From Paramacrobiotus metropolitanus (taxonomy: Eukaryota > Tardigrada > Eutardigrada > Parachela > Macrobiotidae): DNA of 64,000 nucleotides. The stretch lies in NCBI RefSeq assembly GCF_019649055.1, contig NW_026570304.1, positions 248,001-312,000 of the forward strand. The letters are read 5' to 3'. Below the pieces are notes generated by a model. The model was not told the origin of the DNA. It saw nothing but the letters and a program-made list of their open reading frames with translations, and did no database searches. Of the stretch, positions 1 to 55,618 are shown one piece after another; the first letter of the stretch is position 1; every line of letters starts with the position of its first letter. A program made the translations under genes and the position numbers.

Positions 1-1448
1 CGTGCTTCACGAACACTTTAGCGAATTCTTTGGCCGTTGCCGTCTTCATTGGTACCGCAATCACATATTTCGTCAGTTGATCAATAAACACCGCTATGTA
101 TTTGTATCCGTGTTTCTTCGTTGGTAACAGCGGTCCTTTCAGATCAGCGTACACTCGGAAGAACGGATGTCCGACTTTAATCTCTTGTAGTTTTCCCGGT
201 GGGCATTTTCTTGGTGTCTTGCGGAACTGGCAACCTTGGCAGGCGAGTATATAATTCTTCACATCTGTACTCATCCTGTCCCAGTAGTATCGGAGTCTTA
301 TCGCTGACAATGTCTTTTCAAATCCCAAGTGACCTGCTGCTTTCTCGTCGTGCAATGCGTGGATTATCGATCTTCGCATTGACAACGGTACCACGTATGA
401 CCTTTCAAGTCTCCCATTTTTGTCCTTTACCCGGTATAATATACCGTTCCATAACTGGTAGTGCACTTCAAATTTCGATCTTGTTTCCGCGTCTGGTAGG
501 TGTTCCAATTCGTCTATGATCATTGCCAGATGGGGATCTTTCAACTGTTTATTCCGCAATTGCAAGTTGGAATCATCAACCTCTTCTTCGTCACCTTGCA
601 GGTTGACAATGCGAACTGTCGCCGTACTGAGTTCATTCCAATCCTTGATGACCTTGCATCGTGGTAACGGTTTATACCGCTTTTTCGCCTGTTTTGGGAA
701 TCTCAGCAGTTTGATTGGGCATTCGTTCAACGCTTGTGCCACTTTGTCCGTTTCCCAAAGGTCATCTCTATTCTCCGCTCTATCATCAAGTCCCGTGACC
801 TTTCCATTCTGCATTTGAGATTCCGCGTCAATTCCGGTGACCTTTAAGTCACTAACGGCGGGCAACCAGCTTCTCACTCGGTTCACTTTTGCTTCGTTTT
901 CAGCCGACTCGTTCGCCGTAGCTGAGGTGACCTTTAATCGTTTCTCCCTCTGTTCCACCATCTGCAGGAACAGCTGTCCAACTTCAATTGCCGGTTCCTT
1001 CGTATCAAACTCCTTCTTGTAATCCTCGAAATTCGGAATCTCATCAAATTCTTCTTCGTGACACGTCGGACCTTCAATTGGCGCTCTTGATAACGCGTCC
1101 GCGTTGTCACAATATTTTCCCGGTTTGTATTCGATTTTAAATTGGTGGCCTTGTAGTGCCATTGCCCATCTTGTTAAGCGTGGGTTCATTCCAACTTTAT
1201 TCGTTTCTGACCTTAGCAAGTTGGTCAGCGCCTGATGGTCCGTCCTTACGGTGAACTCGGCATAATCGATGTACGGCTTGAATTTCCTGACAGCGAACAC
1301 TACTGCCAGACATTCCCATTCTGTTACACCGTAATTCTTCTCAGCTCCATGTAGAACACGACTGGCGTACGCGATCGGATGTCCATCTTGTGACAGCACA
1401 GCTCCAATTCCTTCTTTACTTGCGTCGCATTCGATTACGGTCGGTTTT
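1..1448 (-). CDS. pol: Pol C-terminal part: RNase H and integrase (partial)
   Basis: The minus-strand frame starting around base 1448 is open to the window edge. It begins with the RNase H strand containing DASKEGIGAVLSQDG and the later motif TDHQALTNLL, then ADALSRAPIEG. An acidic linker holding three AAGGTCAC copies (795, 837, 927), all read as KVT, follows. Next come an H2C2 zinc-binding domain (HALHDEKAAGH ... CQGC, about 290-360) and the start of the DDE integrase core (VYADLKGP ... YIAVFIDQLT). The catalytic core is cut by the window edge. Upstream it joins the RT segment only through a one-base frame change near 1445-1448. RNase H and integrase identity is secure from motif order; the RNase H-integrase linker is longer than usual. 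Confidence 0.88.
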
Positions 1449-3330
1449 GCGGGTCAAACTTTGCCAGTACTGGACCTTCACATAACAACTGTTTCAAACT
1501 GTTGAACTCATCTTCATGTACCTTCGTCCAGTCCTTTTTCACGTGCTTGTCTTGTCTCAGCAACTCGTATAGGTGGCAGGTCTTCTGTGCATATCCCATT
1601 ATGAACTTGCGGTAATAGTTCGCCAGTCCAAGGAATGACCTTAATTGCCTTTCTGTCTGAGGCCGTTTAAAATCTGAGACCGCGGTGACCTTTTCCGGAT
1701 CCATGCGAATTCCGTCTTCACTGAGTATGTGACCCAGGAATCCCATTTGTCTCATTCCGAATTCACATTTCGTTGGCTTTATTGTGAATCCCGCTTCGAC
1801 CAGGCTCATTAGGACGTTTCTCAAATTCTGCATGAAAATTTCCCAAGTTTTTCCAGCGAAGATAACGTCATCAATGTACCCGAAAACGCAACCCTTTCTT
1901 TTCGCTTTTGAGAGTACTTTGTCCATGCACAACTGGAATGTTGCTGGTCCGTTGCACACTCCGAATGGCATTCGTTTAAACCGGTACATTCCATCTTGCG
2001 TTACAAAGGTCGTCTTGTTGATAGACGCCGGATCCATTGGGATCTGCCAGAATCCACTTTGTAGATCCATTTTTCCATAATATTTATTGCCTGCGCACGC
2101 GTCGAGCAATTCATCTGGGTTCGGTAGCGGATAATTGTTCTTTCTTGTTAACTTGTTAAGCATGATATAGTTGACACAAAATCTTGTCCCCATTGTCCCG
2201 TCGCCATTTTTCTTTACTGCCAGAACGACTGGAAAACTCCACTCGGCATCTGACGGTTCGATCACATCTTGTGCCAACATCTCCTCAATATGCTTCGTTA
2301 TAAACTCACGGCCTGTCCAACTCGTTCTGGCCGGGTTACACTTAACTGGCTTTGCATCTCCCGTGTCAATTACGTGAGTGACCCCTTTTACATCTCCATA
2401 CGGTTTCTTTGATGTGGGTAAGACCTTCCAGAATTCCCAGAACGCGTTATACACGTCGTTTTTCTGCTCTTGGGTAAGGTCAGGTCCCAATTTCAAGTTT
2501 TCGATTATCTTTTTCAGTTCAGCTTTCGTTGTATCGTCCACCTCAGGGTCTTCGAGTACGTTTTTCACTGTCCCTGCGTTGACCTTTACATTCTCCATAT
2601 GTTCATACGGCTCAACATAGCCGAGTAGCTGATTTTTCTTCACGATCCGGTATTTGCTACTATGATTCGCAATGACGATTTCAAAGTATTTTCCTCTATG
2701 GTCCGTCACTCCTGCCAACGGTTGAACTTCAGTTTCCACTTGTGGGACCGGTGTAAACATCAACTTGTTTTGGGCCGGTGCATATTTTCCCATCTTGACC
2801 TTTACACGCGTGCAATTTGACGGTTTCAATTTGATTCGCTGGTCGCTGTAAACTTTGATCACGTCCTTCGACATTCTAGCTTTTTCCTCTTTCAATCTTC
2901 TGACTTTAATATCCTTTTCTTTTTCCTCATCTACTTCGTCATCTTCATCCAAGTCCATTAAATCTTCTTGTTCTGAAAGGTCACTTACACCTGAATCTTC
3001 CGAAGTTGTTGAGTTATCACTTGAACTCCTCCACTCGGAGTCCGAGTTACTGCTCTCATATTCTTGTGCAGTAGCTTGACCTTTGTCAGTCTTTTCGAGT
3101 GGGCGCTCATCAACTCCTTCATCTTCTGATGAAAGGTCACTTTCGTTTTCCCCCGAATCGCTAAGTTCTTTCGCTTTCGAATTTTTGAGCAGAGGTTTGT
3201 CCCCTTCTTTTGCCTTTCGCCCATTTCGTGCGGCGACTCTTGGGTGACTCCTTGCTACTCGGATTCTCGCTGGTGACCTTCTGATTGGTCGGAGTTTGAC
3301 CTTTCTTCGTCCGATTTTGACTTTTCCAGT
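1435..3330 (-). CDS. pol: Pol N-terminal part: reverse transcriptase
   Basis: Translated from the minus strand, this segment has the classic Ty3/gypsy RT blocks: an N-terminal linker, VIEPSDAEWSFPVVLAVKK, TRFCVNYIMLNKLT, KMDLQSGFWQIPMD, FKRMPFGVCNGPATFQ, the catalytic YIDD box (1867-1878), TKCEFGMRQMGFLGHILS and the thumb motif LRSFLGLANYYRKF. The frame is open from about 3330 and overlaps the protease ORF by about 75 nt in the -1 frame; the first in-frame ATG is at 2958. It stops at 1435 just before the RNase H strand, where a one-base frame change is needed to continue. The N-terminal 130 codons are very acidic and hold two copies of the repeated 8-mer, both read as SDLS. Initiation by frameshift from the protease ORF is more likely than use of the internal ATG. 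Confidence 0.9.
   Translation of the reverse strand, partial: TGKVKIGRRKVKLRPIRRSPARIRVARSHPRVAARNGRKAKEGDKPLLKNSKAKELSDSGENESDLSSEDEGVDERPLEKTDKGQATAQEYESSNSDSEWRSSSDNSTTSEDSGVSDLSEQEDLMDLDEDDEVDEEKEKDIKVRRLKEEKARMSKDVIKVYSDQRIKLKPSNCTRVKVKMGKYAPAQNKLMFTPVPQVETEVQPLAGVTDHRGKYFEIVIANHSSKYRIVKKNQLLGYVEPYEHMENVKVNAGTVKNVLEDPEVDDTTKAELKKIIENLKLGPDLTQEQKNDVYNAFWEFWKVLPTSKKPYGDVKGVTHVIDTGDAKPVKCNPARTSWTGREFITKHIEEMLAQDVIEPSDAEWSFPVVLAVKKNGDGTMGTRFCVNYIMLNKLTRKNNYPLPNPDELLDACAGNKYYGKMDLQSGFWQIPMDPASINKTTFVTQDGMYRFKRMPFGVCNGPATFQLCMDKVLSKAKRKGCVFGYIDDVIFAGKTWEIFMQNLRNVLMSLVEAGFTIKPTKCEFGMRQMGFLGHILSEDGIRMDPEKVTAVSDFKRPQTERQLRSFLGLANYYRKFIMGYAQKTCHLYELLRQDKHVKKDWTKVHEDEFNSLKQLLCEGPVLAKFDPQNRP
1442..1449 (-). 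other. frame break in pol at an A4 run
   Basis: The RT frame ends at a TAA (1437-1435), while the conserved continuation into RNase H lies in the -1 frame. The two overlap at a run of four A on the coding strand (T at 1445-1448). Programmed shifting inside the RT-RNase H boundary is not expected in this family, so a one-base deletion in the copy or an assembly homopolymer error is the simplest reading. Confidence 0.6.
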
Positions 3331-6300
3331 TCATTTATTTCTTCGGGACTCGTTAATGGCTTTTCGGTCAACTCGACCGGCGGACATTCCTCACCGTTAT
3401 CGAGTGGCCTTTCTCCGTTTTTTGCCTCAGTTGCTGGGTTTTGCTGCTCATTCGATATCCTTTCAACTTCCTCTTTGAACCTTTTCCACATTTCCCCTCT
3501 ATCCGTTAACATCTGCGCAATATCGAAAGCCGACTTTGAACTTTCTTCCGTTTCGTTCGATTGTCCTTCGGCTATCTCTTGAACTGGTTCCTCTTTCTCT
3601 GCTTCTTTGACAGTCCCTTTATTGGCTTCATCCTGTTGAACTGTTTCGTAACCTTTAGGTCGTTTAGTACCAACGAAAATGCAGTTTGCCATCAGCTCTT
3701 CGGTGACCCATTCATCATTTGGAATCGTTTCATACATGCACCATGTATCACCGCCTCGTTCGGGGTGGTCCACTCCATCTGGATCTGGTGCAAAGGTCAC
3801 CTTTTTCTTTTGCACTAATCCCGGTAACCTTCTTTTCCGGGTAACCTGTAGTTCTCGCATCTCTTTTACGTCAAATTTGGGGATTTCTCCCTCGAATTTC
3901 TTCCAGTATTTCTCGAATGCTTTTTCGTTTCCCTCTTTTAACGCGTTGTAGTACACTTCAAGTGATTCGTAGACGGGTGTGCCAAGTCCTGCCGGGAAAA
4001 TAATCGTCCTCCCTTCACCCTTATACATGTGGTTTACACGGAAGTCCCAGAAAAGGTCAACTCTCGCTTCTTCCCACATTTCTCCTTCCTCGGTCATTTC
4101 TTCTATCTCTCGTTCAAATCTCCTTTCTGTTGCTACCGGATCGAGAGGATCTTGGATTCCTTTCTCGACACGTTGCAACCAATGGTTTAGCCATCTGCCT
4201 CTTTCAATTATAAAACTTTCCACACAGGACAACCACGTTCGATATCTATTCCAATGATACCGTTCGATGTGTGGTTTCCACATTCCGTTTGTCCGCATGA
4301 TGCTTTTCGCTTTCTTTTGGGCATGACCTTTAAGGTCTGCTAATGCGGCATTACATCTTGGCCATTCTGAAGGGTCATCTTGAGAGGCATTTTCACAACA
4401 TTCCGCGCATTCCCATTGTGGTTGCACTCTGCACGGATCCTCAAAGTAACCGTGGTGACAACTCCCGGCTCGTTCTTCTGGAGTTAATGTCCTTTGACTC
4501 GCTTCCGGTTTAATCTGTTCCTGTACTGTGGTATCTTCCTCACATTCGATTGGAGTCACGCTTTTATCCTCAGAGGATATTTCAATGACCTCTGGTTCTT
4601 TTTCTGTTTGGTGACCTTTCAATTGTTCAAGTGCCTTGTCGCGGATTTCGCTTGTAAACATCTGTTCCTCTTCAGCTATTCGTTTCAAAACTCGTAACCT
4701 TTCACTCTTTTTATCCTTCCCCACTTTAGCCGTCTTTATTTCCAGTGTCTCTGGTACTGGGATAGGCTTTGCCCACTCCATGTCTGGCACAAGCGATTGT
4801 TTCGCTGCAACTGCCGCTTCTTTCTGTGTGGCAATTATCTCTTCAAGCGTTGGTGACCTTTCGGTAGCAGGTCGTGGTTCGAAAAAGGGTTCCTTTTGAG
4901 AGTCACGTTCTGTTACTTCCTCTTTGGCTTTATCTGGTAGCCTTTCATTTTGGGTAGCAGGTCGTGGTTCGAAAAGGTTCGAATTACGCTCTCGTTCCAA
5001 GTTCTCAGTTGCTGGTGACCTTTTGTCTTCCTTTCCCAGTGCCTCTGGTACTGGGATAACTTTTTCGACATTTCCATTTTCTTTTTTCGATTCCAGTGCC
5101 TCTGGTACTGGGATAATTTCTTCCTGCTGCACTTTTGTCATTCCCGGTGCCTCTGGTACTGGGATGACCTTTTCTCTTCCCTTCTGTGTCAGCAAAGTCC
5201 GATTTAATGTCTTTTCGATCTCCTGCTGGATTACTTGCAACTGCTCAAATGGTGACAATTCTTTTCGCGTCATCTTTTTCTTTTCGTTTCCCGGTGCCTC
5301 TGGTACTGGGATTAGCGCTTTATTAACAGTTTGAGCCTTTTCCTGTTTTGCAAGTTCGGTGACCTTTCCGACTTGTACTTTGGCAACTGGTTTTGGGTCA
5401 TCTTCTTTTTCTTCTTCACCTTCATTATCCATCAGTACAAATTTCTTTTCCAAGAAGTCGAATCCCAGTAACACTTGTACGTCGTCACACTTCGGTCGGA
5501 CGTAGAAGGAATGTTCGCTTGTCTTCTTTCGTAAGGTCACTGGTGCTACACAGTAATGCGTCACCAGGAATCCTGACGTTCCGCTAATTCCGTTAATCTT
5601 CACCAGTCTATCTGGTGGCAGTGGGAGCATATGAAGTCCATTCTTCTCACAAAGCGGTTTGCTGATCAGCGACGTCTCAGCGCCGGTGTCCAACATTGCG
5701 TTGACCTTTATGTCTCCCACTTTCACTTCGTGAGTGTATGCTTCAATTCTTTTAGGCAATTTTCCGTTTTGAATCTTCAATGTGTGAATCTTACATTTCA
5801 CAGGGATGAGCGATACTGGTCCCGGATCCATATCGGAAAGCACTTGTCCTTTTGCTGGAGTGCTATGACCTTTCAGTATCTCGCTCAGCTTATCAATCCT
5901 ATGTGGAACGTTAGTCCGAACATCGTAATATTTTCGAGTCTCTTTCTTGTCTGTTTGCTTCTCAGGAATCTTTTTACTGCTGGTGACCTTTTCGGCATTT
6001 TGCACTTGCTCGTTTGCTTTTGTGCCAGCTGTGTGACCTTTTGTCACTTCGTTTATCGTCTGATGAATCAGTTCCTCTTTACGGTTTTCATTTCGCTTAT
6101 CTCGCAGCTTCTCAATGACTTCACTTGTTATTTGGTCAGCTTGCTTCAGTTCCTCTGCTTCACTATCTTTCATCTCATCTGGTGACCTTTCATATGTGAC
6201 CATATCATATCCCTTTTCGGTCATCCATTCGATTACCTTTGCGGACACTTCATTGTTCGTTTTCGTCTGATCAATTTGTGAAGACATTCCATCTGTTCGG

Positions 6301-7742
6301 CCTGGTGACTTATCGTTGGCATCCTTTTGCAGTGCTTGAGATAAGTCCCGTGACCTTTCAACTGCGCTACTCTGTTGCGTTTGCGCCATCTCGTTTGACC
6401 TTCCTTTCTGTTTATTTTGCGCTAAGTCCTGTGACCTTTCGTTGCGCTTCATGACAAATCCGCCGTTTGTCAGCTTTTGTATAGGGACTTTTTCTCCATA
6501 ATTCGGCGGTTTATCCTGTGGCGGAGCATTGCGTGAATAATTCCAGTCAGCGCATGTCTTCTTATATTCCTCTGCGTTGAATGCTGGGACTGGGTTCGGT
6601 GACCCTTGCGCTGGTTTCCCGGTAACCAACTCTTCTAGTCGCTTTCTTTCACATTGCGTTCGCAACTGTTGCATATCCCAGTAGTCCCCTTGTGACATTT
6701 TCGCTTTCTGCTTTGCCTTCGGCGTTACGGGTATCCACATCCCGTGATTCCCATTCGGTCTGTAGGCCACTTTTTGCCAGATTTCCTTCCGTTGCAGCGT
6801 TATTGCATCTACAAGTGAGTCTTCGGAGTTCTGTTGTGCCGTTTCGCTATTCTTTTGCTGCGCTGTTCGCAGTGTCAAGTCTGTTTCTTGACCTTTTAAC
6901 ACGACGCTGTCGCCGTGACCTTTCGCATTCGCACTCGCTCCTTGACCTTTAACTTGGACCTTTCCAACGGAAGGTGACCTTTCATCTTTACTACTAACGG
7001 TGATATTCTGCTTAATCCATTCTTGCCTTGCCAGCTTCTCTTCTTCGTCTTCTGAACAATTCCAAAACTTTGGCTTTGGCTCCCCGCAACAATCGCAACT
7101 TGGCTCATTCGCCTTATCGTTTTCTGCCAAAAATTTTCGGAATTTCGCATGCTGCTCGTTTTCTTCTTGCGCAGTATCATTCTGCGGTTTCTTCTGATTC
7201 AGCAGCGCCTGTTTAATCTTTGCGTTCCGTTGTGCGCGTCGTTGCGCTAACACTTCTTCGCTGCAATACGGTGACCTTTCATTTTGCTGCACTTTTTGCA
7301 GTGTCGCGCTACCGTCACGACAATTTCCACTCGCAGTACCATTCTGCGGTGACCTTTGGTCCCGTTGCGCGTTTCCATTCGCAGTAACATTCTGCGGTGA
7401 CTTTTTATCCACTTGGACGTTCCCACTCGCAGTACCATTCTGCGGTGACCTTTGATTTTGTGACGGTATCCCTATAACCGTTCCGTTTCCTTTTTGCGAT
7501 GACGGCATCCATATAGCCGTTTCTCTTTGTTGTGGCGGCATCCATCTAGCCGTTTCTTGTGGTTGCGGCATCCATATAGCCGGTCCACTTTGCTTTTTCG
7601 CTGACGGCATCCATATAGCCGTTGCAGTGGTCACGTTCACTGCAGTACCATTCTGCAGTGGTGACCTTTCCCTTTTATCCGGTGGTTTAGGGTCGGGTCG
7701 ATCAGTAGGCTCACCGGTGCCTACTGATCTTGCCCGTTTCCC
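3255..7742 (-). CDS. pro: protease ORF with long repetitive arms (Gag-Pro extension)
   Basis: A frame of about 1495 codons lies in -1 relative to gag and is entered at the GGGAAAC site at 7736-7742; the 7640 position often taken as a start is GTG, so a frameshift start is preferred. The N-terminal 600 residues are low complexity: degenerate IWMP repeats, PQNGTASGN repeats and many ERSP tetrapeptides. A retropepsin-like aspartic protease follows, with VNAMLDTGAETSLIS (DTGA at 5679-5690) and the flap/ILGF-like VLLGFDFLEKK. Then come five IPVPEA-type repeats, two FEPRPAT repeats, and a C-terminal region with Trp-rich segments and a Cys/His cluster (HHGYFEDPC ... CAECC). It ends at TAG 3257-3255, overlapping the RT frame. 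The size is exceptional for a Ty3 protease region; the extra arms have no function I recognise. Confidence 0.85.
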   Translation of the reverse strand, partial: GKRARSVGTGEPTDRPDPKPPDKRERSPLQNGTAVNVTTATAIWMPSAKKQSGPAIWMPQPQETARWMPPQQRETAIWMPSSQKGNGTVIGIPSQNQRSPQNGTASGNVQVDKKSPQNVTANGNAQRDQRSPQNGTASGNCRDGSATLQKVQQNERSPYCSEEVLAQRRAQRNAKIKQALLNQKKPQNDTAQEENEQHAKFRKFLAENDKANEPSCDCCGEPKPKFWNCSEDEEEKLARQEWIKQNITVSSKDERSPSVGKVQVKGQGASANAKGHGDSVVLKGQETDLTLRTAQQKNSETAQQNSEDSLVDAITLQRKEIWQKVAYRPNGNHGMWIPVTPKAKQKAKMSQGDYWDMQQLRTQCERKRLEELVTGKPAQGSPNPVPAFNAEEYKKTCADWNYSRNAPPQDKPPNYGEKVPIQKLTNGGFVMKRNERSQDLAQNKQKGRSNEMAQTQQSSAVERSRDLSQALQKDANDKSPGRTDGMSSQIDQTKTNNEVSAKVIEWMTEKGYDMVTYERSPDEMKDSEAEELKQADQITSEVIEKLRDKRNENRKEELIHQTINEVTKGHTAGTKANEQVQNAEKVTSSKKIPEKQTDKKETRKYYDVRTNVPHRIDKLSEILKGHSTPAKGQVLSDMDPGPVSLIPVKCKIHTLKIQNGKLPKRIEAYTHEVKVGDIKVNAMLDTGAETSLISKPLCEKNGLHMLPLPPDRLVKINGISGTSGFLVTHYCVAPVTLRKKTSEHSFYVRPKCDDVQVLLGFDFLEKKFVLMDNEGEEEKEDDPKPVAKVQVGKVTELAKQEKAQTVNKALIPVPEAPGNEKKKMTRKELSPFEQLQVIQQEIEKTLNRTLLTQKGREKVIPVPEAPGMTKVQQEEIIPVPEALESKKENGNVEKVIPVPEALGKEDKRSPATENLERERNSNLFEPRPATQNERLPDKAKEEVTERDSQKEPFFEPRPATERSPTLEEIIATQKEAAVAAKQSLVPDMEWAKPIPVPETLEIKTAKVGKDKKSERLRVLKRIAEEEQMFTSEIRDKALEQLKGHQTEKEPEVIEISSEDKSVTPIECEEDTTVQEQIKPEASQRTLTPEERAGSCHHGYFEDPCRVQPQWECAECCENASQDDPSEWPRCNAALADLKGHAQKKAKSIMRTNGMWKPHIERYHWNRYRTWLSCVESFIIERGRWLNHWLQRVEKGIQDPLDPVATERRFEREIEEMTEEGEMWEEARVDLFWDFRVNHMYKGEGRTIIFPAGLGTPVYESLEVYYNALKEGNEKAFEKYWKKFEGEIPKFDVKEMRELQVTRKRRLPGLVQKKKVTFAPDPDGVDHPERGGDTWCMYETIPNDEWVTEELMANCIFVGTKRPKGYETVQQDEANKGTVKEAEKEEPVQEIAEGQSNETEESSKSAFDIAQMLTDRGEMWKRFKEEVERISNEQQNPATEAKNGERPLDNGEECPPVELTEKPLTSPEEINELEKSKSDEERSNSDQSEGHQRESE
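4740..5320 (-). repeat. five in-frame IPVPEA/L repeats in the protease ORF
   Basis: On the plus strand the word CCTCTGGTACTGGGAT recurs near 4750, 5043, 5098, 5150 and 5296. On the coding strand each reads IPVPEA(P/L)G or IPVPETLE at the start of a charged segment. Unlike the AAGGTCAC word, this repeat keeps one frame, so it looks protein-driven. Confidence 0.8.
5600..5800 (-). other. retropepsin-like aspartic protease domain
   Basis: Inside the protease ORF, minus-strand residues read KVGDIKVNAMLDTGAETSLI. DTGA is the single active-site triad of retroviral-type proteases, which work as homodimers. About 80 residues later VLLGFDFL fits the conserved Gly-containing C-terminal motif. Confidence 0.85.
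7470..7640 (-). repeat. degenerate IWMP repeats near the start of the protease ORF
   Basis: At least four plus-strand copies of GCATCCATATAGCCG or close variants (about 7505, 7539, 7569, 7607), plus weaker copies near 7476 and 6730, encode AIWMP/ARWMP/MWIP on the coding strand with a spacing of 31-38 nt. Confidence 0.75.
7700..7742 (-). promoter_or_regulatory. -1 ribosomal frameshift signal at the gag/pro junction
   Basis: Read on the minus strand: the heptamer GGGAAAC (7742-7736) sits in gag phase as G GGA AAC. A 6-nt spacer follows, then GATCAGTAGGC, an 8-nt loop, and GCCTACTGATC, an 11-bp perfect stem (7729-7719 paired with 7710-7700). The gag stop TAG (7723-7721) lies inside the 5' arm. 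Slipping -1 onto GGG AAA C enters exactly the protease ORF frame. Heptamer phase, spacer length and stem all match known retroviral -1 sites. Confidence 0.92.
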
Positions 7743-9904
7743 TGAACCGGCGACCCGCCTTGTTGCGCGCCCTGCACATTTCCTTGCGCTTGCACGTTCA
7801 CTGGGCCACCTCCGTTTGGCTGGCCACCACCCTGTTGGTAGTTTCCTTGGCCGCCGCCATTGTTCTGGCCTCCTCTGAAGTTTCCGCGGCCAAAGCCTCT
7901 GTTTCTTCCTCTGAAGCCGCCGCGGCCGAAGCCACCACGGCCGAAGCCGCCATTCTGGCCACCGCCATTTCCATTTCCATAGTTACCGTTTCCGTTCCCT
8001 TGTTGGTTTTGGAAATTTGCCTTATGTTGGTACCATTGGGTGATGAGGTCATATCCGTTTGCGACCGCTGGGCGCCAGCCACCTATAGCTCGGAGGCGTT
8101 GCCACTCGTTAAAGGCAAACAGATTCGGGTTCTGTTCTGGTGGTGTATTGGCGAACTTGCACCCCTGTGTCTGATGGTTGCCGTACATACAATACTGGCA
8201 CATCTGCACATTGTTCGCCACCCATCCGTCAATCATCTGGAACTTAAACTCAGTTCGTGACCCTTGGTTCTGCTGTTGATTCCCTCTGAAGTTTCCTTGA
8301 CCTTGACCTTGTCCCTGATTCTGGAAGTTCCCCTGACCTCCATTCCAGTTTCCGTTTCCGTATCCATTTCCGCCGAAATTTCCCTGTTGCGGTAACCCCA
8401 TATTCGGAGGCATATTCTGAGGTGGCGGCTGGGCTACATTCTGGGGAGCCACATTCTGGGCTACTGGCCTCACCTGGGCCGCTGCCTGTATCGCTGCCAC
8501 CATTGCGTATGTTAACGGTTGCCCGGTCTGACTGTCGATAAAGGTCACTTCCTTTGTGACCTCTTGGACCGGCGCCTCTCTGCGGTACTCGACTGGCTGT
8601 TGGACTGGTGCAGCTGCCATCCTCTGTTGCGGTACATTTTCAACTTGGCCTTGGCGGATGGTCACGTATTCCTGATTACGTTGACCTTTAGGCGCCTTAT
8701 ATTTGTCTTCTCCCGCTGACCAGTGACGGAAGAAATCTTTGATTTCGGTTGGAGTCCTGCACTGTTGCGTGCGTAGTGCCTTATAAAGGTCACCATCCAC
8801 TCTACATCCTTCGATCAGGAACCCGACTGCTTGCTTTTCAGTTATGATCCTCTTCGCCTTGTATTTCATAATCGCTTGATAAAACTGATCAAGCGATTCT
8901 TTTCCAAGGTCAAATTTCCTTGCCATAGCTTCTCGTAAGCCAAGAACTTCCTCGTCACGGTCTCCATATTCATCTTTAAACTTGGCCATCCATTCTGTAA
9001 TGGTGTATTCCGTTTCTTCTTGGAGTGCGATTTCTCTCTCTCCTTCGAACCAGGTCTTCGCCGGTCCTTTGACTGCGCTGGCTATTTCAATCAAAATCTG
9101 ATCGTCAGTGAGATGATATGTCCGTTGGGTGTCTTTGACCAATTGTGTCCACCCATTCACTGCGTCGCGACTTCCATCAAAGGTCACTAGGTTTGTCTTG
9201 CGCCCCATCGATTGGAGTGCGTTCACTAACCTCTGTGTCGCATCACTGTCTTCTGCCGTACTGGAGTCACTATCGTCATCGTCCTTATTTCGCTTCGCTT
9301 TTCCGTAGCGGGACTTCCTTGGGCGTTCTTGCCGGCTAGACGGTCTATCCTGTTTCCTTTCATCAATGAAGATTTTCGTTTCAATATGTGGATGAAATTG
9401 GGTGGGATCACCACGATTCGAATGGGAATAAGTTTCCGATGGTGGCTCCTTGTCATCGTTGACCTTTTCCCCGTCCTTTTCGTTTTTGACACTTCCTCTG
9501 CCAGTACCGGTTCGTAGCGGCATATCAAAGTGGAAGCTTTTGCCCGTGCCCGTTTCGTGCGCCTTGCTGTAACTGGGCGGGGGCGACTCCACTGTTGAAG
9601 TCCTGACTCCATATTGCAGAAGCTGTTCATCTTTGTGCTTATTAGACATAACAAGCGCCTTATTCTCATCCTCAAGGCGACGGACTTTCAACTGGACTTC
9701 CTCTTTCTCCGTTTTCAAGTTCTGATTCTCCTCCTTGACCTTTAACATATGTTGGTGGAGTTGGAAAGTCTTCTCCTGAATGACCTTTTCAGTGTCATTC
9801 TCCACCTTTTTAATGTGTTCCGCCAACTGGGTCACATCCCTTTCCAGCTTCGTGTATTCCTCGACTGCTGCTTTCAGTTGGTTTTTTCGTCTGGGTGACC
9901 TCAT
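7721..9904 (-). CDS. gag: Gag, C-terminal part: capsid-like domain, zinc knuckle, RGG-rich tail
   Basis: The frame opens with coiled-coil sequence (LERDVTQLAEHIKKVENDTE, then KVKEENQNLKTEKEEVQLKV) that continues the upstream segment. A charged linker, a retrotransposon Gag capsid-like domain (NGWTQLVKDTQRTYHL ... TWFEGEREIALQ ... DQFYQAIMKYKAKRI) and a Gln/Pro/Asn-rich stretch follow. Next is one CCHC zinc knuckle, CQYCMYGNHQTQGC (C-x2-C-x4-H-x4-C), then a Gly-Asn/FGRGGFRGRN tail likely to bind RNA. It stops at 7721 inside the frameshift hairpin. The N-terminal codon is not a convincing start; the coding sequence probably continues from the 9810-11480 segment through a one-base frame change at 9882-9887. 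Confidence 0.85.
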   Translation of the reverse strand: MRSPRRKNQLKAAVEEYTKLERDVTQLAEHIKKVENDTEKVIQEKTFQLHQHMLKVKEENQNLKTEKEEVQLKVRRLEDENKALVMSNKHKDEQLLQYGVRTSTVESPPPSYSKAHETGTGKSFHFDMPLRTGTGRGSVKNEKDGEKVNDDKEPPSETYSHSNRGDPTQFHPHIETKIFIDERKQDRPSSRQERPRKSRYGKAKRNKDDDDSDSSTAEDSDATQRLVNALQSMGRKTNLVTFDGSRDAVNGWTQLVKDTQRTYHLTDDQILIEIASAVKGPAKTWFEGEREIALQEETEYTITEWMAKFKDEYGDRDEEVLGLREAMARKFDLGKESLDQFYQAIMKYKAKRIITEKQAVGFLIEGCRVDGDLYKALRTQQCRTPTEIKDFFRHWSAGEDKYKAPKGQRNQEYVTIRQGQVENVPQQRMAAAPVQQPVEYRREAPVQEVTKEVTFIDSQTGQPLTYAMVAAIQAAAQVRPVAQNVAPQNVAQPPPQNMPPNMGLPQQGNFGGNGYGNGNWNGGQGNFQNQGQGQGQGNFRGNQQQNQGSRTEFKFQMIDGWVANNVQMCQYCMYGNHQTQGCKFANTPPEQNPNLFAFNEWQRLRAIGGWRPAVANGYDLITQWYQHKANFQNQQGNGNGNYGNGNGGGQNGGFGRGGFGRGGFRGRNRGFGRGNFRGGQNNGGGQGNYQQGGGQPNGGGPVNVQAQGNVQGAQQGGSPVQGNGQDQ

Positions 9905-11480
9905 CTTCTCTTGTCATCACCGTTTGGGTCATATCAATCAGCTCCGTGTTGAGCTTGATAATCTCCTGCGTCTTCTGGTGGACTGATTGTTGCCACTCCT
10001 TATCTTTCAGTTCAAGTACCGTGACCTTTTCATCCAGGAGGTGTGCCTCGTGTTCCCACCTCATGCCTTGCTCGGCAATTGTCTTAGCAGTCTTTTTCAA
10101 CTCGGTATTCTCTTCGGTGACCTTTTGAACATCTTCTTTCAACGACTTGTTCTCTTCCATCACCTGCTTAATTTCGTTCTTCAACCGCACACCTTCAGTG
10201 GCTTTAAGCTCCCTCAGGTCCTTAGCCACTTTGACAGCGTCGTCGGCTCTCCTCTGATGATCCTGTGATTCTTTTTGAAGGGTTCCGATGTTCTCGTCCC
10301 GTAACTTCAATTCGTTTCTCAGCTTAAACACCTCATTGGTGTTTGTCAACAATCGTTGAGTAGCGTCAACGAGTTTGGCCGCGTATTCATCTCGCTTGGC
10401 TTCCGCTTCGGTGACCTTAAGTTTCAGTGAGGCACATTCATCCTTCAATTCGGCTAAGTGCCGTGACCTTTCCGCTGATTCTTCTGACATGCTCTCATTA
10501 AGGTCACTAACTGCAAGATGACCTTCCATTTCTCTGTCATCTGCCATTTTCAAATATTCATCAGCCAATTCCTTCTGTCTTTCATATTTCACCTTCCAAC
10601 CGTCTGCGGCACTTTGAAGGTCACCCTGTTGCTGCTCCAGATCGAACAGGCGTGCTTCAAGTGTCGTCAGTCTTTCCCGGTATTCCTGTTTTCGCTTATC
10701 CGCTTGACGTTCATTGACTTCAAGTTCATTTTCCAATTCACTGACACGTCTCCTCAAAGTTGACGTGGGACTGTTCGGTGACGGTGGTCGTACACTGATG
10801 ACCTTTCCAGTTTTTGTCCGTTCAATGAGGTGCTCCGGTATGTCCTTGAATGGTGTCATACCTTCAGCACGGTCAGCTTCCTTCATGGCAGTTTGAAAAG
10901 ACATATTCATCGTTGCTTCATCATCCGTGAAGTAGGACTCGTTCGATTCGTCTGAGACCATTGGAGTTGCCCAAAGGTCATCACCTGCGGTCTTATCGTC
11001 CAATGAAAGGTCATCCAGTCCCAGTTCAGCCAAATTCTCTTCGGTGACCTTTATGTTTCCATCTTCCACTTGGGCCAGGTTTACATTTTTATCCTGCTCG
11101 TTTGTTCCGCTGGTGGTAGCATCCAGCTGTGATGCTGCCACTGCTTCCGCTCTTCTTTCTGTGGATTTTTCCTCCCCAGTGACCTTTGTCTGGTTCATCG
11201 GTTCACTTCCCGCCGTAGACGCGGGAGTGTGCTTCTGGTCGTCGCTTGAACTTTCCTGATTGGCGACCGCCTCGAGCGCCTTCTGATAAGTGCTATCAGA
11301 GCCTCGTGAATCCTTCTTCTCGAATGCCTTGGGCGCTCGAGTGTTCCGCTCATGTCCAACTGGACGTGAGTACGGGTACAGATCCTTTTTGTACGGATTT
11401 GGTGCGCTTTGCTGTGAGCTGCGGGAGCTTTTGCTTCCCTGACTGCTGTTAGATGTCGGTTCCTCTTGTTCTTTGTCCAT
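9810..11480 (-). CDS. gag: Gag, N-terminal part: long coiled coil
   Basis: The best start is the ATG at 11480-11478 (MDKEQEEPTSNSS). The first 190 residues are Ser/Glu-rich and disordered, followed by about 300 residues of near-continuous heptad-like coiled coil (ETNELEVNERQ-like, VSELENELEVNERQADKRKQ, then LRELKATEGVRLKNEIKQVM). The coil continues in the +1 frame after a run of six A (9882-9887), into the segment that holds the capsid and zinc knuckle. A long N-terminal coil on Gag is unusual for Ty3/gypsy but recalls spumavirus-like or other coiled-coil Gags; function is inferred only. The nominal end at 9810 follows about 20 out-of-phase residues. Confidence 0.78.
   Translation of the reverse strand: MDKEQEEPTSNSSQGSKSSRSSQQSAPNPYKKDLYPYSRPVGHERNTRAPKAFEKKDSRGSDSTYQKALEAVANQESSSDDQKHTPASTAGSEPMNQTKVTGEEKSTERRAEAVAASQLDATTSGTNEQDKNVNLAQVEDGNIKVTEENLAELGLDDLSLDDKTAGDDLWATPMVSDESNESYFTDDEATMNMSFQTAMKEADRAEGMTPFKDIPEHLIERTKTGKVISVRPPSPNSPTSTLRRRVSELENELEVNERQADKRKQEYRERLTTLEARLFDLEQQQGDLQSAADGWKVKYERQKELADEYLKMADDREMEGHLAVSDLNESMSEESAERSRHLAELKDECASLKLKVTEAEAKRDEYAAKLVDATQRLLTNTNEVFKLRNELKLRDENIGTLQKESQDHQRRADDAVKVAKDLRELKATEGVRLKNEIKQVMEENKSLKEDVQKVTEENTELKKTAKTIAEQGMRWEHEAHLLDEKVTVLELKDKEWQQSVHQKTQEIIKLNTELIDMTQTVMTREDEVTQTKKPTESSSRGIHEAGKGCDPVGGTH
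9881..9888 (-). other. frame break in gag at an A6 run
   Basis: The two coiled-coil segments are joined only if one base of the A6 run (T at 9882-9887) is ignored. The required shift is +1, so the AAAAAAC word here is in the wrong phase for a -1 slip. A one-base insertion in the copy, or an assembly error, is most likely. Confidence 0.6.
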
Positions 11481-11556
11481 GTTGATCGGATAACTTGGAC
11501 GCTCCTGCCAATTGTTCTCACACACACGTTATTGTATGGTTTATTCAAGTATCCTA

Positions 11557-12072
11557 AAGGTCACTTTGTACTTTGAAATTTTTCAAAGTCTTTGTTAAAG
11601 GTCACTGTTCGGTTGAAAAATTTTGACTAAGTCCCGTTTAAAGGTCACTTTTTTGGTAAAAAGTTCGAGAGATTTGCCCCAAAAGGTCACTTTCGGACAA
11701 AACTTCGAAACCGCTTTTACAGCTCAGAATACGTTAGCGAATGAAATCCTACAGCTACTGATATCGCTGTACTATTAATCAACTCAATTCCAACTTCGTT
11801 AAAGGTCACCGTTGATCACTTTCAGATCATAAAGGTCACTAAAATTAGGCCAATTTGATTAATTCCAACTTTTTGGTAAAGGTCACTTTTCAAAGTCAAA
11901 AGTCAACTTCTGGTCTCAAAGGTCACTTTCCGACTCAACTCAACTCAAAGGGTCACTTTCCAGTTCAAATTCTGTTAAAAGGTCACTTTCCCGCTCAATT
12001 CCAGTTAAAGGTCACTTTTAAGCTCAATTCGATCAAAGGTCACTTTTCCTTTGTCTCAACTCAAAAGGTCAC
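11557..12072. repeat. array of 12 AAGGTCAC words in the retroelement leader
   Basis: Exact plus-strand AAGGTCAC occurs at 11557, 11598, 11641, 11683, 11802, 11832, 11879, 11919, 11979, 12008, 12036 and 12065, plus one AGGGTCAC near 11950. Most are AAAGGTCACTTT, and all have the same orientation. Spacing clusters near 41-43 and 28-30 nt. The intervening sequence (TTCAAATTC, CAACTCAATTC) is only loosely repeated, so this is not a simple tandem array. Confidence 0.95.
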
Positions 12073-12162
12073 TTTTCGTCTCAATTATCTTATCTCAAAT
12101 CAAATTTTCCATTACAGCTAGAGTTCAGCGGAAAATCCCCATTCGGGTTGTTTACTTCTTTC

Positions 12163-12375
12163 TGATTGGTCCGCTAGCTCAAATTATTCAGTTCAAATTT
12201 CGGCCAATCACAGCTCAGATAACTGACCAATCACGTTAGTCCACTTAAATTTTAGATCTGCCTGACGTCACGGTCAACGGCCAGACATGCGCGCCGCGTG
12301 CAAAACTCCGCCTACTTCTACGCTCAGCTCAGTACGGACCAATGAAAATTGAGAATTTTACCATCTAACCAATCC
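12163..12375. promoter_or_regulatory. CCAAT-box cluster with CRE palindrome
   Basis: ATTGG/CCAAT pentamers occur near 12163, 12203, 12227, 12340 and 12368, in both orientations, with TGACGTCA at 12263-12270. This matches NF-Y and CREB/ATF site consensus and is a plausible enhancer/promoter for the minus-strand retroelement. It is a motif match only. Confidence 0.45.
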
Positions 12376-12638
12376 CGTAATTAATAACGGGTTTTCTACC
12401 TGTTTCCTCGTCCTTTCCACGAGAATCGTTCCAGATGATCCAGATTCTTCTTCCACTGTCCGTTCCCGCGCTGCCGCCGGTTTTACCGTAACGGTTGTGC
12501 CGCACGCTTTTGGTGGGTTACTGTGCCGGCTGACTGCCGTAGCAACAGTAGTGGCGCTCTACTCCAGTTTGGAGGAGTCTAATCTGTCTTTTCCCGTGCG
12601 CCCCTTTTGGCGCTTCGCCGCTTGTGGCCCACGGCTTA

Positions 12639-12774
12639 GGCTTCGCTGAAGCCCTGCCGAGTAACGGTGACACCAGTGCAGGTCTTCGCTGAAGACTCCG
12701 CACCGAGGAACACCGTCGACTGAACTCTTGAACTCTTTCACAGCAGTGGAACAGCACAGGTCTTCGCTGAAGAC
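12639..12774. repeat. three related short hairpins
   Basis: GGCTTCGCTGAAGCC (12639-12653), GTCTTCGCTGAAGAC (12682-12696) and GTCTTCGCTGAAGAC (12760-12774) are perfect 6-bp stems around GCT. The outer stem bases change together between copy 1 and copies 2-3. Confidence 0.8.
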
Positions 12775-13251
12775 ACTGTACCGAAACCAAGGCTGGTAAT
12801 CCCGTCCGATGAGGAACTTGCACCGCTTGTGGTGTGCGCTTTGCTGTCAGATAGACCTGTGCCTTACTGGTCGGGTTTCCACATCAAATAACAGGCCAAC
12901 TTTGCCTGACACAATTCAGATCAGAGAACCGCTGTCGGCTCTGCTACCATCTAATGGTAGATCCAGAATAGATCCACAGACGGAGACAGAAACGGAATCT
13001 ATCCCGTGGAAGCGAGCAATACGATCTGGATTGCGAACTATTGCGAAATCACAAAACGTCGCACCGTAAACTGCTGACTTTTAATATTGAAAGTCTGGAG
13101 AACAGAAAATCAACAATTGATCGGCGCAGCTCGATCGTAAAACGTAGAGCCAATTCAACAGCGTGCAACGCTGTGCAGCACGTGCTATGCCGCGCCCACT
13201 AACACAACTCAAGCCAATCAGAAGAGACACAACACAGACATGTAATCCTAA

Positions 13252-13276
13252 GGCGTAGCGCCACAGGCGTAGCGCC
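13252..13276. repeat. two GGCGTAGCGCC palindromes 14 bp apart
   Basis: GGCGTAGCGCC occurs at 13252-13262 and 13266-13276; each forms a 4-bp stem. They sit near the likely outer edge of the LTR region. Confidence 0.6.
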
Positions 13277-13756
13277 ACTGACGTGAACGCTAGTGATCCC
13301 GGTCTCACACCGGTATTCCCTGAAAGATAGTCTGTACAATGGAAAACACCACCATCTTCAAAATTACATTATCGGTACAAATCTGTTAAAATTATTGACA
13401 TTTTAAAATTAAAATGAACACTCAAAGCAGTAGCCGTACGAACTCGTACAGATAACTAAGTATCGTATTTATAAGAGAAGCACATAATTATAGAAATTGT
13501 CCATGCACTATTGTCCCGTCCCTCGGCCTTAAACATCCATTATCCCGTCCCCCTAAGCTTTATCCCACCCCCTTGCCGTTCCTTAAAGAAAGGAAAGACC
13601 CTTTTTTTAGTTAAAACTAAATAACTAATCATATTCTTGCCTGCATTTGTCCTTTTCTCCTATATTTTCTCCGTTCTTTCTATGTTCTTCCCATTCTCTC
13701 TGTATTTCTTCTTGTTTTCCTCTCCCGTTCACTGACAAGTGGCACTCAGCATAATA

Positions 13757-39404: not shown

Positions 39405-39840
39405 TGGAAGTTTGCGCCGGGGCGCTAACTTTGTTTAACGCGGTAAGAGAAACGCCGGCCAGCCTGATTTCTCGTTTATGCAGGGCATTAATGGACAATT
39501 GCTTGGACTTCGCACGGACCTGATGACTGCCTCCTCTCTATCTCCGTGGAATGCGGAATCGTCCTGTTTACCAGCGGATCGTCTGCCTGCCCTTTGTCGT
39601 TGCAGTGGATCCCGCGCTCGCCTGTCCATCGCCAGTTATGCCTGTCCAGTCCTCTGATTGCCTCTCCGTCCCTTTCACTGGCAGCGGGAGTTAACCTATT
39701 TACCTGATAGCATTTCGCGAAAAGATTGTTCATGTGCGTTGGGTGATGGCTGTCATTTCATTCGGTTTGCACGCGTGTCGGATTGAATAATTTCTGCAAC
39801 AGTTAGCGCTTGAATGTGACCTTTCAACTACTGGGAGTTA
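39405..39840 (+). repeat. split direct repeat A1
   Basis: Almost identical to A2 (43892-44327); one difference seen is CTAACTTTG versus CTAATTTTG. It ends TTTCAACTACTGGGAGTTA and includes one GTGACCTT word. Confidence 0.93.
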
Positions 39841-39908: not shown

Positions 39909-41093
39909 ATGTCGGGAAGACGGGGCAGAAGAACCAACGCCAACGCTCCCCAACCACCGGCAAAGCGACCAGCAAGGGGACGTCCACGGGCGCAGATGAT
40001 TCTCAACTCTGGCGAATTTCCTGCTAACAGCAACGCCACGGTAAGCACGGGAAGCACAGTCAGCATCGATGCCCAGGTTACCGCGGCCAGACAGCATTTG
40101 GAGTCACTGCTGGCACAGAGGAGCCCGGAGGTACAGCTTTTACCGGGTCCTCCCACGCCTCCAACGGCCGTCCAGTCCCAGCCAACGGAAACCGCCATGC
40201 TTATTCAGTTGATGCTCTCCCAGCAGAATCATCTCACCCAGCTAACACAAAAGGTCAACGATCTCTCCCCATCGACGTCCGCGGGCACAAGCGCAGGAGC
40301 CACAAACAGTAAGAAACCACCACCGTTGCCGGCTGGGTTTCCTCTTGTTAGTGATAAATGTCTGGAAGAACTGTATGACCTTACGGTTAACGTCGATTTA
40401 GACAAGCTGCTGCGGGCGAATAGCATTATGTCACCAATCCAGGGCGAAGCTAAGATCGAGATTAGAGATAGTGATTTCGTACTATCTGATTCTAAACCGC
40501 GAAAGGTCACGATTACATCATTTACATTGTGGTGCGAAGCGTTCATTGTTTTTCGTCGTGTACGTAGTCATTATCATCCTGAGCTTAGAGATCCGTTAGA
40601 TTCATACCAGGCTACCATCACCGACCTGGCGGGCACGTACACGGCTGCGGTGTGGCTAGAGTACGATAAAACCTTCCGTGCCGGCCGCACCCGCGACACA
40701 AGCCATGACGACTGGTACCGGCTTGACCGAAACCTACTGGACCGCTGCGTCGCTCGCCTCCCACATCGTGCACATCTCCAGCTATGCCGCGAGTGCGTGA
40801 TCGCGGACCATACCGAGCAGGACTGTGCCAAGAAGCTCCAATTCCCAGCACAAGGTCGACAGGACATCAAGGCGGATCGGCCCTTTCGACACATCCCGCC
40901 AGACCTGTGCAGAAACTGGAATAACGGGAGATGCACCAGAGGAGCTAACTGTCCCTACAGCCACAAGTGCGCAGTATGCCGCGCCACTGACCACCCCGTC
41001 GCCGAACACGATGCAGCTCAGCATAAGCATGGCAACGGTCACAATGCCAAACCCGGAAGTGACCACACCGGTCTCCGTCGAGAGACTCGCTGA
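39909..41093 (+). CDS. gag: Gag-like ORF1 of the tyrosine-recombinase element
   Basis: The ATG at 39909 (MSGRRGRRTNANAPQPPAKR) is the best start; the upstream GTG at 39885 is not a eukaryotic start. The product is 394 aa. It starts basic and Pro-rich, then has a predicted helical Gag domain (KCLEELYDLTVNVDLDKLLR ... TLWCEAFIVFRRVRSHYHPE). The C-terminal zinc-binding region has a CRECVIADHTEQDC cluster and a CCCH finger, CRNWNNGRCTRGANCPYSH (C-x7-C-x5-C-x3-H), typical of Gag proteins of this group. It overlaps ORF2 in the +1 frame. Confidence 0.88.
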   Translation: MSGRRGRRTNANAPQPPAKRPARGRPRAQMILNSGEFPANSNATVSTGSTVSIDAQVTAARQHLESLLAQRSPEVQLLPGPPTPPTAVQSQPTETAMLIQLMLSQQNHLTQLTQKVNDLSPSTSAGTSAGATNSKKPPPLPAGFPLVSDKCLEELYDLTVNVDLDKLLRANSIMSPIQGEAKIEIRDSDFVLSDSKPRKVTITSFTLWCEAFIVFRRVRSHYHPELRDPLDSYQATITDLAGTYTAAVWLEYDKTFRAGRTRDTSHDDWYRLDRNLLDRCVARLPHRAHLQLCRECVIADHTEQDCAKKLQFPAQGRQDIKADRPFRHIPPDLCRNWNNGRCTRGANCPYSHKCAVCRATDHPVAEHDAAQHKHGNGHNAKPGSDHTGLRRETR

Positions 41094-43891: not shown

Positions 43892-44327
43892 TGGAAGTTT
43901 GCGCCGGGGCGCTAATTTTGTTTAACGCGGTAAGAGAAACGCCGGCCAGCCTGATTTCTCGTTTATGCAGGGCATTAATGGACAATTGCTTGGACTTCGC
44001 ACGGACCTGATGACTGCCTCCTCTCTATCTCCGTGGAATGCGGAATCGTCCTGTTTACCAGCGGATCGTCTGCCTGCCCTTTGTCGTTGCAGTGGATCCC
44101 GCGCTCGCCTGTCCATCGCCAGTTATGCCTGTCCAGTCCTCTGATTGCCTCTCCGTCCCTTTCACTGGCAGCGGGAGTTAACCTATTTACCTGATAGCAT
44201 TTCGCGAAAAGATTGTTCATGTGCGTTGGGTGATGGCTGTCATTTCATTCGGTTTGCACGCGTGTCGGATTGAATAATTTCTGCAACAGTTAGCGCTTGA
44301 ATGTGACCTTTCAACTACTGGGAGTTA
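43892..44327 (+). repeat. split direct repeat A2
   Basis: 436 bp copy of A1, directly joined to B1 at GTTAA; followed by the 90-bp spacer CCCGCCTTCCCACCC... Confidence 0.93.
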
Positions 44328-51270: not shown

Positions 51271-51339
51271 GGTTCGAGTTTGATCGTTTTGTGGTGACCT
51301 TTCACTACTTTTTTTCACGCCTGCCTAACTTAATCTAAG

Positions 51340-51782: not shown

Positions 51783-52608
51783 GTTAATGGAAGTTTGCGC
51801 CGGTGCGCTAACTTTGTTTAACGCGGTAAGAGAAACGCCGGCCAGCCTGATTTCTCGTTAAAGCAGGGCATTAACGGACAGTTGCTTGGACTTCGCACGG
51901 ACCTGATGACTACCTCCTCTCCATCTCCGTGGAATGCGGAATCGTCCTGTTTACCAGCGGATCGCCTGCCTGCCCTTTGTCGTTGCAGTTGATCCCGCGC
52001 TTGCCTGTCCATCGCCAGTTATGCCTGTCCAATCCTCTATTACCTCTCCGTCCCTTTCACTGGCAGCGGGAGTTAACCTATTTACTTTGATAGCATTTCG
52101 CGAAAGATTGTTCATGTGCGTTGGGTAATGGATGTCATTTCATTCGGTTTGCACGCGTGTCGGATTGAATAATTTTTGCAACAGTTAACGCTTGAATGTG
52201 ACCTTTCAACTACTGGAAGTTACCCGCCTTCCCACCCTTTTTTAGCATCATGTTTATACTGTCTAAACTTCCGCATTGGTACTTTGTAAAATATTGATTA
52301 AAGGCTAGTTCTCACTCGCGCAGCTCTCTCGCAATGGTACGCACAGAACCGCGCCGGAAGGTGCACTCATACATCCTGACCACGAATCAGGTCCATCACC
52401 TGGCCACGAATCAGGTGCCGTAAAACCTCCCTGGCCACGTATCAGGGAGCAGCTATTCACCTGGCCACGCATCAGGTGTCCCACTCCACGCATACGCTCC
52501 TTCCGGTGGTCGAGCATGTTCTGACGTTTCCACGAGACTCCGCGGCCGATCTGAGGCTGGTCACATGCCCCAACACAATCGCCGGCGTTTCTCTTATTAT
52601 GTCGTTAA
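51783..52608 (+). mobile_element. solo A-B terminal unit of the tyrosine-recombinase element
   Basis: The sequence matches A2-spacer-B2 of the full element (43887-44722) from end to end, about 95% by eye, with GTTAA at both edges (51783-51787, 52604-52608) and no ORFs. This is what A1 x A2 recombination, or an A2-B2 unit left after loss of the body, would leave: the counterpart of a solo LTR. Confidence 0.88.
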
Positions 52609-55025: not shown

Positions 55026-55618
55026 CCTATTGGGTCAACGCACTGTCGCAAAAGATCCAGGGTCCAACCGGGAAACAGGCAAGTTCCGAAGTTTCTTCAG
55101 TAGGGAAAGGTCACGTTCTGGGGAAATTTGGGCAGGGGTTTGGGGCATCGGTACGCTCGTGACCCTGCAAACACAAGAATACGCTGCTCCGGTGGGGAAA
55201 ATCCACTGTTCCGTCCGGGGAAAGGTCGCCGTCCCAGGAAATACGGGCAGTGCTTTGGTGTGGGGAATTCTTCGGCGTGATGCTGGTGGTCGATCCGGCC
55301 GTGGGGATCGGAGTGGGTGCTGCTGGTCGCGGTGTATCCGTTCTGGTTTCCCGCTGAATCCGGGCCGCGTCCGCCGTCGGCATCGCAGGAGACGATTCTC
55401 GCTCCGCGGCATCATCTCCATCGCTTTCTGGTGGAGGCATCCAATGCGTTCCGCATCGGGGTGCATTCTGCACGGCAGGTGGCTTATCCCGGGGGGGCTA
55501 CGGATGGAGCTCCATACCGGGGGTTGCATCGGCAGCGATCTGGTCCACAGCTCAGAGGTGGCCCGTGAGCGGGGCAAGCGCGCTGTGGGAACACGATCGT
55601 CACCGTGATCTGCTACCA

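Follow-up and report, generated by a model that had tools for sequence, protein, structure and literature searches.

The 64,000-nucleotide stretch of the Paramacrobiotus metropolitanus genome (169.8 Mb) analysed here, C84:248001-312000, hereafter the window, contains part of a giant mobile element that is loaded with one 8-base word, AAAGGTCA, and this word is kept, as judged from diverged copies, by selection on the DNA and not on the protein. The element, by its sequence a Ty3-type long terminal repeat (LTR) retrotransposon of 24,606 bp on the minus strand, is ordered LTR, candidate primer site, leader array, open reading frame (ORF) 1, Gag-like ORF, protease, reverse transcriptase (RT), RNase H/integrase and further ORFs. 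We give a probability of about 0.5 to the reading that AAAGGTCA is the site of a host protein binding double-stranded DNA, most likely an NR4A-type nuclear receptor or a protein of like preference, with which the element has become loaded; the word, its excess within and beyond the element, its conservation and the selection at the DNA level are observed directly, and from them we infer the binding, the kind of protein and the gain to the element.

Abundance and shape of the word

The original prediction had reported about 47 copies of AAGGTCAC/GTGACCTT in 12.1 kb, 12 of them in the leader and 35 in the ORFs, and our recount agrees. Before position 12,100, 21 copies of AAGGTCAC are on the plus strand and 26 on the minus strand, the first at 795 and the last at 12065-12072; the 12 leader copies (11557-12065) are all on the plus strand, and the other 35 are in the coding body. 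Under a second-order Markov model of window positions 1-13000, 0.86 copies of AAGGTCAC would be expected against the 47 seen, and AAAGGTCA is the top 8-mer (62 against 1.23 expected). The whole element has 96 copies of AAAGGTCA (62 in window 1-13309, 27 in the adjoining piece L083 and seven in L090 7204-9000), in two arrangements:

11556-12072, minus strand: leader array made up of 12 exact copies of AAAGGTCAC in antisense orientation relative to the element, with starts 28 to 119 bases apart
398-11187, both strands: body words, 50 AAAGGTCA, of which 40 are sense and 10 antisense to the element

The leader words sit within 517 bp and are usually followed by TTT, with a near-match, AAAGGGTCAC, at 11947; leader arrays of like orientation relative to the element were found in the copies L001, L002, L006 and L008. 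Within 1.1 kb of the 3' LTR, six words have the orientation of the leader and one the opposite. The body words belong to a set of 64 AAGGTCA in positions 1-11528, with a mean AAGGTCA spacing of 171 bases, and are irregularly spaced (coefficient of variation 0.86). Some words fall within tandem repeats (7324-7456 and 11915-12075), and the contexts of the body words are mostly unlike each other.

The base 5' of AAGGTCA is A in 78% of the 64 ORF-region sites and in all 12 leader sites, and the base 3' of it is G in only 3% of the ORF-region sites. Further out the preferences at the ORF sites weaken, so that the motif is sharply bounded. The best-supported core is thus AAAGGTCA followed by C, A or T, rather than AAGGTCAC. 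One-base neighbours of the word number 56 in the element against 30.9 expected.

Selection at the DNA level

Codons were shuffled synonymously inside each ORF (500 shuffles). The ORFs contain 46 AAAGGTCA, 38 sense and eight antisense, against 3.8 after shuffling (means 3.52 and 0.28, maxima nine and four), so the shuffled null that the original prediction had named as its own check leaves the word far above expectation. Chance or base composition as the cause is ruled out by the Markov and synonymous-shuffle nulls together. Translated within the ORFs, the word gives KVT, RS preceded mostly by E, Q, K or R, KGH/Q, XDL and VTF/L; it thus uses three sense and two antisense frames, and the remaining antisense frame would give a stop. 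The sense bias in the ORFs is what coding permits, because shuffles of codon order likewise favour sense over antisense (0.64 against 0.06).

Synonymous positions inside the words are nearly frozen. Considering only codons wholly inside words with an unchanged amino acid, and taking the expectation from the rates outside words, the copies differ from the window at two of 67 (L039; 15.8 expected), four of 60 (L040; 13.4 expected) and one of 26 (L041; 13.1 expected), and the adjoining pieces L002 and L008 at none of 14 (5.8 expected) and none of 12 (3.3 expected). Per-base identity leads to the same result: it is 88-100% inside the word and falls on both sides of it in diverged copies, to 75-97% in the flanks for L039 and L040 and to 43-92% for L041, in agreement with the expectation that sites be better conserved than their flanks. 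These comparisons show that it is the DNA of the word, and not its protein reading, that selection preserves.

Antisense ORF words are kept about as well as sense ones: seven of eight against 25 of 34 in L039, four of five against 21 of 28 in L040, and four of five against 11 of 11 in L041. Since antisense words are both enriched and kept like sense words, the pattern points to recognition of double-stranded DNA independent of strand, and a role of the word in packaging the genomic RNA, one of the functions first proposed, is unlikely.

Word-rich and word-poor copies

The window is the common partner in every copy comparison, and the comparisons are therefore not independent. L039 and L040 are about 86% identical to the window in DNA, whereas L041 represents a far family, whose protease ORF has about 43% amino-acid identity. 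Expecting word sharing from the 8-mer identity at aligned places, we found 32 of 39 words shared in L039 (17.2 expected), 25 of 33 in L040 (14.8), 16 of 17 in L002 (5.2), 16 of 18 in L008 (7.7), 15 of 16 in L041 (1.8), two of three in L005 (0.3) and three of three in L006 (0.6), but three of 23 in L042 (2.2). When words were masked before alignment, 33 of 39 were shared in L039, 23 of 31 in L040, six of seven in L041 and two of 16 in L042; the conservation in L041 is partly alignment-dependent, as only seven of its 45 words then lie in aligned places.

The words are thus kept in the lineages L039/L002, L040/L008 and L041, and not in the L042 family. By RT the latter is nearer to the window (86% amino-acid identity over 335 residues, against 81% over 388 for L041), yet few words are kept in it: L042 has seven AAAGGTCA in 8.6 kb, and its synonymous differences inside words, 14 of 29 against 12.8 expected, reveal no constraint. 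L042 and L005 together are still enriched, more weakly, with 11 words against 0.44 expected. Interrupted frames occur in L042, but likewise in the word-rich L039 and L040.

The word in the rest of the genome

The recount in the other 52 kb of the window gives eight copies of AAGGTCAC, in keeping with the at least eight first reported: 39816, 40503, 44303, 48789, 51294, 52198, 55107 and 57211. Their surroundings are as follows:

39816-39824, minus strand: word beside a tyrosine-recombinase (DIRS-like) retroelement; same repeat at 44303-44311 and 52198-52206
40502-40510, plus strand: word inside the DIRS-like ORF region; site also in the C1 copy L077
48789-48797, minus strand: isolated word
51294-51302, minus strand: isolated word
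55106-55114, plus strand: word in another dispersed repeat, with copies L070 and L075
57211-57218, plus strand: AAGGTCAC preceded by T

The words at 39816, 44303 and 52198 have common flanks and represent one repeat present three times, and L077 is 99% identical to the 40502 region over 310 bases.

This excess had been called mild, but in a background of 205 kb (the part of the window to the right of the element, 30 nuclear-receptor DNA-binding domain (DBD) loci and 20 random 3-kb loci, with about 4.8 kb counted twice through the overlaps L024/L033 and L028/L038) AAAGGTCA has the highest z-score of all 8-mers, with 46 copies against 6.07 expected. Among 9-mers AAAGGTCAC comes first (21 against 1.28), and among 7-mers AAGGTCA (68 against 16.6). 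The background words as remnants of the element were rejected: no homology to the element was detected by blastn (E 1e-4) in 145 kb of the background or in the 20 random loci. Yet three of 20 single-site loci on C1 (L065, L070 and L079), hand-picked by eye from the plus-strand match list, hold stretches homologous to the element. Genome-wide, 19,414 copies of AAAGGTCAC compare with 3,461 of the reversed pattern; with at most one mismatch the counts are 79,611, possibly a lower bound, and 72,050. As the one-mismatch excess is small, the genome excess resides in the exact word. Word pairs of the same orientation 10-40 bases apart number 1,777 against 9 (genome-wide, element copies included).

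The paralogous loci L087 and L088, a small gene-like pair 80% identical to each other, share five of five words, where 27% of all 8-mers are identical, and three of the words in L087 lie within 120 bases upstream of the start codon of a short ORF. The start of this ORF resembles a secreted protein by eye.

Three further observations concern other repeats and motifs. L085 and L086 belong to an unrelated dispersed repeat (C1:1543686, 1547784, 2686082, 2688826 and 3224810) with a 28-base unit in which the word occurs twice, as AAAGGTCAC(R)TGGCGACCTAAAGGTCAC or in closely similar forms. A satellite at C1:2657237-2662759, with a period of about 137 bases, has GAAGGTCAC in nearly every unit. The word ACCGGAAG, which we take to be ETS-like, occurs 27 times in the background (5.78 expected) and once in the element (1.70 expected), so the element does not appear to be loaded with host-type motifs generally.

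Candidate binding proteins

The core of the word is identical to the NBRE, as originally stated: AAAGGTCA is the NBRE core, bound by the NR4A monomer and a regulatory site of genes (PMC4777543). It resembles the known site in this core, and differs in that 96 copies stand in one mobile element instead of at genes. As in the NBRE, A and not C precedes AAGGTCA: genome-wide the base 5' of AAGGTCAC is A in 19,414 cases, C in 1,895 and G or T in 4,488, the last count being inflated by the GAAGGTCAC satellite on C1. This first-base preference favours, on sequence, the NBRE of NR4A over an ERR or FTZ-F1/NR5A site.

ERR and NR5A prefer the extended site TCAAGGTCA. In the 205-kb background it occurs once (0.81 expected), which is chance level, and CAAGGTCAC shows no excess genome-wide (1,895 against 1,871 for the reversed control). 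An ERR- or FTZ-F1-type site was rejected on these counts. Among the receptors originally named, NR4A therefore stands and ERR and FTZ-F1/NR5A are disfavoured. The genome contains 63 zf-C4 matches, counted by exon piece, and a DBD at C45:296809-297642, joined by hand from two pieces, has NR4A1/NGFI-B (6lc1, 1cit) and NR4A2 as its best solved matches.

Structure of the element

The element had been placed at 795..12072, but it is about twice as long, spanning C84:236704-261309 (window 1-13309 plus the pieces L083 and L090). The two LTRs have one mismatch in 353 ungapped columns, plus seven gap columns, and CCGG is found at both outer ends, as expected of a target-site duplication; on this evidence the 24,606-bp insertion looks young. 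The parts in the window are:

12950-13309, minus strand: 5' LTR; its partner, C84:236704-237056, is outside the window
12939-12949, minus strand: candidate primer-binding site TGGTAGCAGAG, directly after the LTR
9813-11528, minus strand: ORF1, open frame of about 571 amino acids, no recognised domain
7721-9904, minus strand: Gag-like ORF, 727 amino acids, named by position and a CX2CX4HX4C knuckle seen by eye
3255-7640, minus strand: long ORF with a retroviral-type aspartic protease (PF13650, 6e-08; PF13975, 6.6e-08)
1435-3330, minus strand: RT ORF, stop to stop (PF00078, 3.4e-26); ATG form 1435-2958
2-1453, minus strand: RNase H/integrase frame, running past the window into L083 9498-8080

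The primer-binding site is putative and presumably resembles the 3' end of the initiator Met tRNA. ORF1, upstream of the Gag-like ORF, appears coiled-coil-like by eye. Pfam gave no match for the Gag-like ORF. A search against Rfam produced no match.

The order protease, RT, RNase H and integrase is that expected of Ty3/gypsy elements, the later domains being judged through the relative L084, on which RT_RNaseH, Integrase_H2C2 and rve are all clear; rve on the element's own L083 piece (6e-4) is below the curated cut-off. Three proteins, all named as P. metropolitanus, come closest to the RT ORF, with identities of 99%, 96% and 68% across 38-45% of the query; one of the 120 RT matches listed (P0067) is labelled transposon gypsy. 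The Ty3 assignment originally made is supported by the LTRs and the domain order.

The extra ORFs after the integrase lie beyond the window and carry words too. For the longest, of 697 amino acids, a search of 5.8 billion proteins (7,991 candidates scored) gave 11 homologues, each of them named P. metropolitanus. Neither ORF1 nor the extra ORFs gave a Pfam domain above the cut-off or a useful match to a solved structure; the idea, formed by eye, that an extra 3' ORF is a winged-helix or linker-histone protein is unsupported by either, and the AlphaFold model of the extra ORF is too poor for use (mean pLDDT 35).

Same-strand LTR matches, paired by position only, are 24.3-24.6 kb apart on C56, C70, C104 and C8, which suggests that this is the usual size of the family; other such pairs are 17.9-22.4 kb apart. 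Copy numbers are lower bounds: 40 of 306 LTR candidates were scored, all with at least 90% identity, and 40 of 200 for a 577-base body probe. A giant Ty3-type element whose LTRs measure about 360 bp and whose integrase is followed by large additional ORFs merits description in its own right.

Discussion

That the word is the strongest 8-mer in 205 kb of other DNA argues for a host protein rather than a reader encoded by the element. The host genome carries AAAGGTCA at scattered single places; the element has built it up into antisense arrays close to each LTR and, through codon choice and protein segments tolerant of the word, repeats it about every 250 bases over its length. Jointly the sites would load the host protein onto the entire integrated copy, as the leader array of gypsy loads Su(Hw), and from such a gypsy-like array extended through the body we infer the coating. 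The benefit may be that transcription is secured, or that the copy is kept from silencing; the body-wide spread favours an action along the whole copy over one on the promoter alone.

Several results weigh against this reading. The family of L042 and L005 demonstrates that a Ty3 element can spread with few words. Part of the background excess falls in other repeats: the C1 sites of L075 and L077 lie within repeats that are also present in the window, and that of L070 likewise. When only the 60 kb of random loci are considered, AAAGGTCA comes fourth of the 8-mers (11 against 1.88 expected), after AAGGTCAC, which leads them (9 against 1.04), and two others; AAGGTCA is fifth among 7-mers there, and AAAGGTCAC, with 5 against 0.38, does not lead the 9-mers. 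The proteins of L087 and L088 have no detected homologues, so these loci are not proven host genes. Finally, the word is stricter than expected for a nuclear-receptor site, its one-base neighbours in the background numbering 196 against 161.

This strictness would suit a multi-finger protein as well, and that the binder is an unrelated zinc-finger or insulator protein with AAAGGTCA as its site, or a nuclear receptor of the ERR or FTZ-F1/NR5A type, is a tentative but serious possibility. The genome has DBDs that we take, by eye, to be ERR-like (L011 and L014) and FTZ-F1-like (L009). The counts of TCAAGGTCA and CAAGGTCAC speak against these two receptor types only, and leave an unrelated protein unaffected.

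It is also conceivable, though unlikely, that AAAGGTCA is a genome-wide mark of 'self' or licensing read by an NR4A-like protein, and that the element's lineage mimics this mark over its entire length, down to synonymous sites, and so escapes silencing.

The word might instead be read by a protein of the element itself (ORF1, Gag or a post-integrase ORF), for anti-silencing or for the handling of cDNA or chromatin, which we consider quite improbable. The model is the VANC proteins of Arabidopsis, whose 9-base binding motif has accumulated along VANDAL elements, partly in tandem, and is present in at least one unrelated element as well (PMC5735166); such accumulation can serve anti-silencing (PMC5735166; PMC10398659). 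Here, too, a short motif is piled up along a whole mobile element, partly as tandem repeats, and the extra ORFs, which carry words and of which the one of 697 amino acids has homologues named P. metropolitanus only in the database searched, would suit a protein of this kind. However, VANDAL motifs are non-coding and read by an element-encoded protein, whereas 35 of the 47 words here are coding and other DNA is enriched: the word leads all 8-mers in 205 kb of DNA without detected homology to the element, and it occurs in unrelated repeats and in the upstream region kept between L087 and L088. Nor do ORF1 and the extra ORFs, with their lack of domains and structure matches, offer a recognisable binding protein, although they may still bind DNA. 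Of the two readers originally proposed, a host factor or an element protein, the evidence hence favours the former.

An effect at the RNA level, in which body AAAGGUCAC pairs with leader GUGACCUUU or Gag binds the RNA word for packaging, is very unlikely. In the window copy the 12 leader words are antisense without exception and the body words are mostly sense, and the far family L001/L006/L041 has a like arrangement, but the sense excess in the ORFs is what coding allows, and the word is enriched in DNA unrelated to the element too. As the main cause, RNA pairing or packaging was rejected on the antisense words, which are enriched at least as much as the sense ones and kept as well. That the word is merely carried by peptides such as KVT, ERS and KGH or by copied units can be dismissed despite the words in tandem repeats, since five reading frames are used, most body contexts differ and synonymous positions hardly change inside the words while others do, which refutes protein repeats as the sole cause.

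The original prediction knew of no Ty3 element with this pattern. For the leader there is a precedent: in gypsy, 12 Su(Hw) sites are clustered in a 340-bp part of the 5' untranslated region, and endogenous sites are generally isolated (PMC2374998). Both are Ty3-type LTR elements, and a dense array of a single site in the 5' leader, characteristic of a gypsy-type host-factor array, is present here as 12 words in 517 bp, together with scattered words in the genome. The situation is different from that of gypsy in that words also occur throughout the ORFs and close to the 3' LTR, with conservation at synonymous sites, and in that the motif is NBRE-like and not the Su(Hw) consensus; the likeness concerns the layout of the array as read from sequence, not insulator activity. 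The giant Ty3/gypsy elements Burro (planarian) and Ogre (plant) are likewise longer than 20 kb with extra ORFs or domains (PMC6431247), whereas here the LTRs are short (353-360 bp) and no domain was recognised in the extra ORFs; the available part of that paper makes no mention of a repeated host-factor word in either. A literature search of titles and abstract beginnings, with most subscription journals outside its coverage, found no tardigrade report of the word and no Ty3 element with the word through its ORFs.

Host-factor sites in mobile elements are usually seen as promoter or insulator parts of non-coding ends. Here selection has apparently acted on an 8-base site all through the coding body of an element of 24.6 kb, and the synonymous positions inside the word are nearly frozen. 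If a protein reads the word, the element would give a direct handle on a widely used tardigrade regulator, and the word-rich and word-poor families would constitute a natural test of what an element gains from being coated by a host protein.

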